DNA of 64,000 bases from Kribbella sp. VKM Ac-2568 (GTDB lineage Bacteria; Actinomycetota; Actinomycetes; Propionibacteriales; Kribbellaceae): assembly GCF_004345365.1 (NCBI RefSeq), contig NZ_SLVF01000006.1, positions 372,001 through 436,000 of the forward strand. Reading direction: 5' to 3'. The notes beneath the pieces are model-generated. The model searched no databases, had not been told where the DNA came from, and saw only the letters and a program-made list of their open reading frames with translations. Every line of letters begins with the position of its first letter. Positions within the stretch are counted from its first letter, which is position 1. The position numbers were made by a program, and so were the translations under genes. Positions 48,780-51,680 of this stretch are shown in pieces.

Positions 48780-49613
48780 TCACGGGAGGCGGATGAAGTC
48801 CCGGGTGGCCGTGGCGGTGATCGCGGCGAGGGCCGAGGCGTCCTGAGGGCGGCCGCCGGCGACGATCTCGAACAAGGTGTGCTGGGCGTCGTTGATGGAG
48901 ACGAGCCGGTCGACGACCAGCCGCGGACCGCGGGTGGGATCCGTGTAGGTGTAGGTGAAGGTCGTGTGGTGGAAGACCATTCCGGTGAAGTTCGGGTTGG
49001 TCGCCTTGGTGGTGCCGTCCACGCGGGAGATGAGCCTGAAGTCGGCCGACGCGGTGCTGGCCAGGGTGAGTTTGCGGTCGGTCAGCATCTTCACCGGGAG
49101 GTCCGAGGCATTGGCGTTCACCCGGAGGTTCCAGAGCTTGTTCGGGCTGCTGAACCGCACCTCGAAGGTGGACAGCTTGACCATCGACCAGGTCTTCGGC
49201 GCCAGGATGATGACGCCGACCTCGGTGGCCGGATCTCCCCAGCCCCGATGCGTGTACTGCACCTGAGCCGGGGTCAGCGCCGGTACCGCGGGCGTCGGAT
49301 GGGCACTCGGCTTGGAGCTGGGCCCGGTACTCGGCTCAGCGCCGGGGTTGGCGCTGGGCTCACCGCTCGGCTGAGCGCTCGGCCCACCGCTCGGCTGAGC
49401 GCCTGGCTCAGTGCTGGCGTTACCGCCCGGCTCAGTCCCCGAGCCGGGGCTGGGCTCCGCGCTGGGGTTGGTGCCGGCGCCGGCGTTCGGGCCGGCCCCC
49501 GCGTGCTCGTTCGCGTCGGTTGAGTGTGAGCCGATCGCGAAACCGGCGGTGACACCGCCGGCGAGGACGACGGCGGCGACTGCGCTGAGCGCGGCAGTAC
49601 GAGTGAGCTTCAT
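48780..49613 (-). CDS. Secreted Pro/Ser/Gly-rich linker protein
   Basis: 277 aa. Signal-like N-terminus (ALSAVAAVVLAGGVTAGFAI) with no lipobox, then residues ~38-110 are a repetitive low-complexity linker of PSAEPS/QPSGGPS units. The C-terminal ~160 residues form a globular domain (VGVIILAPKTWSMVKLSTFE, HHTTFTYTYTDPTRGPRLVV). The domain is unrecognised. It probably sits at the cell surface with the linker spanning the wall. The linker DNA is itself repetitive. Confidence 0.75.
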   Translation of the reverse strand: MKLTRTAALSAVAAVVLAGGVTAGFAIGSHSTDANEHAGAGPNAGAGTNPSAEPSPGSGTEPGGNASTEPGAQPSGGPSAQPSGEPSANPGAEPSTGPSSKPSAHPTPAVPALTPAQVQYTHRGWGDPATEVGVIILAPKTWSMVKLSTFEVRFSSPNKLWNLRVNANASDLPVKMLTDRKLTLASTASADFRLISRVDGTTKATNPNFTGMVFHHTTFTYTYTDPTRGPRLVVDRLVSINDAQHTLFEIVAGGRPQDASALAAITATATRDFIRLP

Positions 49614-49683
49614 CCGGCTTCCCTCAGGTCCTGACGGTCCTCTGACCGCACCCCTTCGACGCCTTCGCCGGGTCAGAAGTTCA

Positions 49684-50724
49684 CTAGGTCGCGAACTCCA
49701 CTCTGACCCCGAGCAGGCGCACCGGCCGGCGGAGCTCGAACTTCTCCAGCAGCACCAGCGCTGCCGCCGCGATCACCTCGGGATCCTGGGTGATCTCCGG
49801 CAGTTTGCGGCTTTTGATCGGGGTGAAGAACGAGGTGAACCGCACCTTGACGGCGATCCGCTGGATGCTGCGGCCGTCCGCGACCACCTCCCGCGTCACC
49901 GTCTCGGCGATCCGGCGCAACTCCCGCTCGATCTCCGCCCGCTCCACGAGGTCGGTGGCGAACGTCTCCTCGTGGCTTCGCGACACCGGCTCACGCGGTA
50001 CGTCGGTCACCTCGGTGTCGCCGAGTCCTCGTCCGAGCGCGAGGTACCAGGTGCCCATCTTCGGACCGAAGCGTTTCTTCAGTACGTCGAGGTCGGCGGC
50101 CGCGAGGTCTGCGACGGTGAACAGCCCGAGTTCGTTGAGGTTCTGCGACATCCGGCTGCCGATACCCCAGAGGTCGCGGACCGGACGGTGGTGCATCACG
50201 TCGGCCCAGTTCGCGACGGTCAGCCGGTAGATCCCCTCGCCGGACCCGCTGTCGCGTTTCCCGAACCCGGTGGCCAGTTTGGCCCGCACCTTGTTGTCGC
50301 CGATCCCGATCGAGCAGGACAGCCCGGTCCGCTCCAGCACAGCCCGGCGCAGCTCTTGGGCCAACGCCTCCGGGTCGTCGGTCGAGGCGCCGACGAAGCA
50401 CTCGTCCCAGCCCCATACCTCGACGATCACCGGGAACTCGCGCAGCGTGTCCATCACCTCCGCGGAGGCCGCGTCGTACGCCGCCGGGTCGGTCGGCAGG
50501 AAGAGGGCGTCCGGGCAGCGTTTCGCGGCCGCCCGGAGCGGCATCCCCGAGTGCACGCCGAACTCGCGGGCCTCGTACGACGCGGTGGCAACCACCTGGC
50601 GGGCCTGGGTCGGGTCGCCCGAGCCACCTACCACCACCGGCAGTCCCCGGAGTTCGGGATGACGCCGGATCTCGACCGCGGCGATGAACTGGTCCATGTC
50701 GACGTGCAGGATCCACCAGCTCAT
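49684..50724 (-). CDS. dinB: DinB2-type Y-family DNA polymerase
   Basis: 346 aa. Palm motif HVDMDQFIAAVE supplies the first metal Asp (Asp9); EVWGWDECFVGA supplies the DE pair; TGLSCSIGIGDNKVRAKLAT is the finger/palm conserved Lys-Arg region. The WGWDE form and the absence of a C-terminal clamp-binding peptide (ends RLLGVRVEFAT) match mycobacterial DinB2 rather than DinB1. The steric-gate position, after Phe13, is Ile14; aromatic residues are usual in DinB1. Error-prone translesion or ribonucleotide-tolerant synthesis is expected from that class. The start codon overlaps a CsoR-like palindrome. Confidence 0.88.
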   Translation of the reverse strand: MSWWILHVDMDQFIAAVEIRRHPELRGLPVVVGGSGDPTQARQVVATASYEAREFGVHSGMPLRAAAKRCPDALFLPTDPAAYDAASAEVMDTLREFPVIVEVWGWDECFVGASTDDPEALAQELRRAVLERTGLSCSIGIGDNKVRAKLATGFGKRDSGSGEGIYRLTVANWADVMHHRPVRDLWGIGSRMSQNLNELGLFTVADLAAADLDVLKKRFGPKMGTWYLALGRGLGDTEVTDVPREPVSRSHEETFATDLVERAEIERELRRIAETVTREVVADGRSIQRIAVKVRFTSFFTPIKSRKLPEITQDPEVIAAAALVLLEKFELRRPVRLLGVRVEFAT

Positions 50725-50737
50725 ACCCCAGGGGTAT
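50723..50737. promoter_or_regulatory. CsoR-like palindrome at the polymerase start
   Basis: ATACCCCAGGGGTAT is a perfect 7+1+7 palindrome covering the start codon of the polymerase gene. TACCC...GGGTA is the arrangement used by CsoR/RicR copper repressors. The resemblance is by pattern only; the spacer (3 nt between TACCC and GGGTA) is shorter than in RicR sites. Confidence 0.5.
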
Positions 50738-50810
50738 CACAGACGGCAGAACAGGTCTTGGACCTCGGGGCGCGACCGAAGGAGGCTTGAAACGACGAAA
50801 GGAACTGAGC

Positions 50811-51680
50811 ATGAAGGTATTTCTGACCGGCGGTTCCGGCTACATCGGCCGGGCCACGATCGAGTCATTGCGCAGGCACGGCCACGAGGTGACCGCGCTC
50901 GCCCGCAGCGACCGGGCGGTCGAAACGGTCACTGCGCTGGGCGCGAAGGCCGTCGTCGGCGACCTGACCGACCTCGATGTACTGCGGGCAGGCGCGTCCG
51001 CGGCGGACGGCGTGATCCACCTGGGCGCCGTGAACAGCCCGGAGGCGGCGACGATCGACCTGGCCGCGGCCGAGGCGATGCTCGACGGTCTCGGTGGTCG
51101 CGGACCGTACGTGCACACCGGTGGTGTCTGGGTTTACGGCGACACCGACGGGTTGATCGACGAAGGCGCGCCGACAAATCCACCGGCGATCACCGCCTGG
51201 CGACTCGACAACGAGGCCCGGGTGCTCGCCTCGGCAGCGTCCGGTTCGCGTCCGGTCGTGGTGATGCCCGGACTCGTCTACGGGCGCTCGAACGGCCTGA
51301 TCGAGGCGTTCTTCGTGGAGCCGGCGCGCACGGAGGGCGCGGTACGGGTGATCGGGGACGGGGCCAATCACACGACGCTGGTACACGTGGACGACATCGC
51401 GGATCTCTACGTGCTCGCGCTGGAGGCGCCGGCGGGTGCGGTGTATCTCGGAGTCGCGCAGAACTTGCGGTTCGCGGAGCTAGCCCCGGCGCTGGCGCAG
51501 GCTGCTGGTCACGCGGGCAAGATCGAGCAGATCAGCCTGGAGCAGGCGCTCGAGCAGCTGGGCCCGATCGCGGAGGCATACGCACTCGACCAGCAGATGC
51601 GCAGCGACCGGGCCCGCCGAGAACTCGGCTGGAACCCCGCCCACCTGGACGCCGCATCCGACCTTGCCGCGGGGCGCTAG
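50811..51680 (+). CDS. NAD-dependent epimerase/dehydratase (extended SDR)
   Basis: 289 aa. VFLTGGSGYIGRATIESLRR is the GxxGxxG NAD(P) motif; the usual catalytic Y-x-x-x-K is not clear, as the region reads VWVYGDTDGLIDEGAPTNPP, so it may be an atypical or NmrA-like member. C-terminal AAGHAGKIEQISLEQALEQL is the substrate-domain helix. ATG 50811 follows AAAGGA. Divergent from the polymerase gene, 86 bp apart, with the palindrome between them. Substrate unknown. Confidence 0.85.
   Translation: MKVFLTGGSGYIGRATIESLRRHGHEVTALARSDRAVETVTALGAKAVVGDLTDLDVLRAGASAADGVIHLGAVNSPEAATIDLAAAEAMLDGLGGRGPYVHTGGVWVYGDTDGLIDEGAPTNPPAITAWRLDNEARVLASAASGSRPVVVMPGLVYGRSNGLIEAFFVEPARTEGAVRVIGDGANHTTLVHVDDIADLYVLALEAPAGAVYLGVAQNLRFAELAPALAQAAGHAGKIEQISLEQALEQLGPIAEAYALDQQMRSDRARRELGWNPAHLDAASDLAAGR

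Follow-up and report, generated by a model that had tools for sequence, protein, structure and literature searches.

The closest described relative of the polymerase considered here is DinB2 of Mycobacterium smegmatis, in which, according to the available text of Ordonez et al. 2014 (PMC4176160), a leucine at steric-gate position 14 accompanies ribonucleotide use and a phenylalanine at the same position abolishes RNA synthesis. The non-aromatic DinB2 gates on record in that text are leucine, isoleucine or valine, and the isoleucine gate of Kribbella flavida DinB2 is already listed there. These Ile-gated enzymes of K. flavida and other Actinobacteria are the nearest precedent, with the same gate residue and, for K. 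flavida, the same genus; the K. flavida protein is in print as a sequence report only (PMC4176160), beyond which nothing on a Kribbella DinB polymerase was found in the literature. For mycobacterial DinB2, no clamp motif is predicted (PMC10159617, available text). With respect to regulation, two types of operator invite comparison. The BenM/CatM dyad of LysR type consists of ATAC-N7-GTAT within T-N11-A, with a second site lying towards the target gene (PMC6628147, as far as its available text goes), while the operators of Streptomyces CsoR have a common TAC-X9-GTA core and differ in length between species (PMC3902906, available text).

In the window, that is, the whole stretch of 64,000 nucleotides of Kribbella sp. 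VKM Ac-2568 that was analysed, dinB2 occupies positions 49684..50724 on the minus strand and encodes a DNA polymerase IV of DinB2 type with 346 aa; the ORF reads MSWWILHVDMDQFIAAVE. The protein matches the NCBIfam model NF002883 over its full length with 543.3 bits (cut-off 330), scores below the respective cut-offs of the remaining Pol IV family models, contains the Pfam domains IMS and IMS_C, and matches DNA polymerase IV chains in the PDB with E values of about 1e-117. We take these chains (4dez and 6jum) to be M. smegmatis DinB2. Homology to them is full-length with 57% identity, the VWGWDE and TASYEAR stretches are conserved, and the C-terminal ends are alike: the Kribbella ORF closes with ...LLGVRVEFAT where the alignment to the PDB chain ends, and inspection of this C-terminus reveals that the clamp-binding tail is absent. 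The differences comprise a few extra residues in the palm-thumb loop of the Kribbella protein and the gate itself, aliphatic in both enzymes, which in the alignment is Leu14 in the PDB chain and Ile14 in the dinB2 product (codon 50683..50685, minus strand). The initial annotation had described a DinB2-like polymerase with a non-aromatic Ile at residue 14 and a missing clamp-binding tail, and it was right on all three counts; the enzyme is an ordinary Kribbella DinB2 of an already known type. The genome has three other Y-family matches: a Tyr-gated protein, a Phe-gated protein and a weak match at C2.

The Ile gate is not new and is the rule rather than an oddity in the genus, being present in 37 of 38 genomes, with Val in the remaining one. 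A survey of named genomes with peptide patterns, restricted to the best 80 of 562 relatives and hence biased to close ones, returned Ile in 46, Leu in 21, Gln in 11, and Val and Phe in one each; Kribbella catacumbae was the nearest named DNA match among the matches listed (92%). By family analogy with M. smegmatis DinB2, the Kribbella enzyme probably discriminates only weakly against ribonucleotides, and Ile14 is likely to be permissive for them. As a separate observation, the Gln-gated DinB2 orthologs (HVDLDQFQAAVE) among these 80 named loci belong to Nocardia (L193, L195, L199, L203, L214, L216, L217, L219, L225 and L231, each near base 1500) and to Mycobacterium hubeiense (L230, also near base 1500). 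The words glutamine and Nocardia are absent from the available text of PMC4176160, and a literature search for a glutamine steric gate in Nocardia DinB2 found none; a polar gate residue of this kind merits an enzyme assay.

The palindrome at the start of the gene, ATACCCCAGGGGTAT, matches exactly at 50723-50737. It had been described in the initial annotation as covering the start codon, of which the position and exactness of the site stood up, while the overlap amounts to only two of the three codon bases (50722-50724). A palindrome search allowing up to 3 mismatches gave 3 matches where 0.37 would be expected; this one site, counted once per strand, accounts for two of them. Across the genome (8.9 Mb), exact copies of ATACCCC-N-GGGGTAT number 2, and with up to 2 mismatches the total is 8, compared with 2 for the reversed control. 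Because of this excess over the control and the recurrence of versions of the palindrome at dinB2 of related genomes, the palindrome is real and beyond chance. With at most 1 mismatch, the same form occurs at 7 sites in 5 of the 38 genomes, of which 4 lie at dinB2 starts, 2 at LysR genes, and 1, on C26, is unexplained. The latter (L005, G000:C26:6589-6603) is the second exact ATACCCC-N-GGGGTAT, and no LysR or SDR homolog was found nearby.

The palindrome contains the BenM/CatM form of dyad, ATAC-N7-GTAT within T-N11-A, exactly at 50723-50737 (a site without strand), and it terminates a longer element, GTCCAAGACC-N11-CTGTGATACC-N5-GGTAT, whose second conserved block in the genus comparison, GGTCTTGGAC, lies at 50754..50763 on the plus strand, on the side of a divergent SDR gene. 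When the 31-base pattern GTCCAAGACC-N11-CTGTGATACC was searched in the 38 genomes with up to 3 mismatches and the reversed pattern as control, 80 matches in 35 of the 38 genomes were obtained versus 20 for the control (columns summed by hand). By position, six of the 80 lie at dinB2 (G000, G010, G017, G027, G030 and G037). Inspection of 30 of the 80, taken in order of search ranking, found a LysR homolog in 24, dinB2 loci in 4 and neither in 2, both of the last being three-mismatch matches. In the own genome, the element recurs between another SDR gene and the LysR gene at C2:432109-432972, whose product contains the Pfam domains HTH_1 and LysR_substrate. Orthologs of this LysR protein were found in 22 genomes of the genus, with ATACC-N5-GGTAT upstream in 19 and the full element in 17; in G027, G030 and G037 the ortholog retains the dyad but no GTCCAAGACC block, and in G024 it has neither.

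Taken together, the palindrome is best read as a predicted LysR-type operator and not as a copper-sensor site. The LysR protein at G000:C2:432109-432972 is the best candidate for its regulator, and the assignment stays at candidate level because several LysR paralogs, 35-55% identical, have similar elements and four LysR orthologs are without the GTCCAAGACC block. LysR promoters usually have a divergent regulator gene. At the window locus no LysR gene adjoins the site, and dinB2 is on the regulator side; a divergent regulator gene is common at LysR-type operators without being obligatory. Compared with the BenM/CatM operators (PMC6628147, available text), the locus shares the dyad and the second site towards the target gene and differs in having dinB2, not lysR, as the regulator-side gene. 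A LysR-type protein, possibly the candidate on C2, would bind the operator in trans. At many other element copies the regulator gene holds the place that dinB2 occupies here, a position that puts a -10-like element and the start codon of dinB2 inside the predicted operator.

The genes around the palindrome are dinB2, the SDR gene and a GNAT gene. The SDR gene (50811..51680, plus strand; NAD-dependent epimerase family, Pfam PF01370) is divergent from dinB2 and is the likely main target of the operator. It adjoins dinB2 in 4 of the 38 genomes, and an ortholog (E <=1e-50) is present in 5 of 38, all within the 22 in which the LysR ortholog occurs. G024 has the element between LysR and SDR genes and no such site at its dinB2. 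With kinship ignored, an intact dyad upstream of dinB2 was present in 4/4 genomes with an adjacent SDR versus 2/34 without (Fisher p=0.0002), and the GTCCAAGACC block at dinB2 in 4/4 versus 1/34 (p=0.00007, kinship likewise ignored), while none of 7600 shuffled stretches contained the dyad. Among genomes without the SDR at dinB2, G017 retains both the dyad and the GTCCAAGACC block together with an SDR deletion remnant, and G007, whose DinB2 is the most similar to the one considered here (92% identity), retains the dyad. The G017 remnant (L050, ~1290-1393) consists of approximately the first 13 codons followed by approximately the last 20 in a different frame, upstream of dinB2. These comparisons make the divergent SDR gene the most likely target of the operator, and we regard it with good confidence as probable that the locus combines an ordinary Ile-gated, tail-less DinB2 with a predicted LysR-type operator, formed by the palindrome and GGTCTTGGAC, that most likely serves this SDR. 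The simplest history is an original dinB2-operator-SDR pair from which the SDR was lost more than once; the alternative, gain in some lines, is compatible with the same distribution. Copying of a lysR-SDR promoter together with its SDR was considered and rejected: the SDR beside the own LysR gene is of classical type (adh_short) and the window SDR of epimerase type, so a copied gene pair does not account for the shared element.

A different account would regard the conserved core simply as the dinB2 promoter, with the near-perfect symmetry being accidental. A -10-like hexamer, TACCCC, with a preceding TG-A, lies at 50731..50736 on the minus strand, six bases before the dinB2 ATG, and no ribosome site is present at the usual distance from this ATG. 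These two features suggest a leaderless dinB2 transcript; selection on such a transcript would maintain the left half of the site once the SDR was lost. Related cores are located upstream of the dinB2 start in 26 of the 38 genomes, in many cases lacking symmetry and with no SDR alongside; this count is descriptive, as its permissive pattern was written post hoc and includes one species' own string. On the other hand, the -10 consensus is TANNNT, and TACCCC is without its final T. A promoter alone also leaves unexplained both the tracking of the SDR by the dyad and the GTCCAAGACC block and their recurrence at LysR genes, and we consider this account improbable. The predicted LysR-type operator, with a leaderless promoter possibly embedded in it, is preferred.

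The initial annotation had proposed instead that the palindrome is a CsoR-family operator placing dinB2 under the control of copper or another metal. The ATACCC and GGGTAT arms with their G-tracts indeed match those of Streptomyces CsoR sites, whose operator lengths vary by species (PMC3902906, available text), and three CsoR-family genes are present in the genome. However, the arms at dinB2 are two bases closer, the spacing being TAC-N7-GTA rather than TAC-X9-GTA, and neither csoR nor copper-efflux genes were found beside the palindrome. Sites with the CsoR spacing lie elsewhere in the own genome: ATACCCC-N3-GGGGTAT has 12 sites with up to 2 mismatches versus 4 for the control, and the five with at most 1 mismatch are all within ~1.8 kb of the CsoR-family genes on C5 and C14. 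Three TAC-X9-GTA-spaced sites lie upstream of the own csoR at C5 and one near the second CsoR homolog; none was found in the stretch of the third. Of the 7 genus sites of the N1 form, by comparison, 6 are at the start of dinB2 or of a LysR gene, and the longer element is mostly at LysR-type genes. CsoR control of dinB2 is rejected on arm spacing and neighbouring genes, and a copper- or metal-responsive operator at this position appears highly improbable. As a separate observation, an N3-type CsoR site (L145, G000:C14:44695-44711) lies between a CsoR-family gene and a divergent gene for what, by eye, is apparently an MFS transporter.

Control of dinB2 by DNA damage through its start region (PafBC or LexA) has next to no probability. 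The genome is enriched in the PafBC-type motif, with 58 sites versus 14 in the reversed control, and the motif is present at 1 mismatch at the Phe-gated dinB of C17. Upstream of dinB2, however, no PafBC-type match is better than 6 mismatches, a result that most shuffles surpass; no LexA-like site with <=3 mismatches lies within 49199-50908, and according to PMC4176160 (available text) DNA damage does not induce dinB2 of M. tuberculosis. Both the PafBC/RecA-NDp promoter and the LexA box were rejected as candidates for dinB2, the former on its 6 mismatches and the latter for want of a site near the start. LexA-like sites at the same threshold number 64 in the whole window against 31 expected. 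In the relatives L013, L032 and L038, CTGTCGG or TTGTCGG was noted by eye upstream of the core. The motif at the Phe-gated dinB (L139, G000:C17:24545-24601) is PafBC/RecA-NDp-like and lies just upstream of that gene.

Given the predicted LysR-type operator, control of dinB2 itself by a LysR protein is possible. Autorepression is common among LysR proteins, which makes it conceivable that a LysR protein bound at the operator could also block dinB2, if the leaderless start is true. The fullest version of this idea, that dinB2 took over the regulator gene's place within a divergent promoter of LysR type, starts leaderless within the operator, and as a ribonucleotide-tolerant polymerase would be repressed or released jointly with the oxidoreductase in response to a metabolite rather than to DNA damage, is tentative and, in our judgement, unlikely; no literature joining DinB or polymerase IV to LysR-type divergent control was found. 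The present analysis removes the lead of copper control and replaces it with a candidate LysR-type operator common to dinB2 and the SDR gene. That this operator may govern dinB2 too is the one point of some interest: if LysR control of dinB2 were true, metabolism would govern the expression of a polymerase that probably tolerates ribonucleotides.
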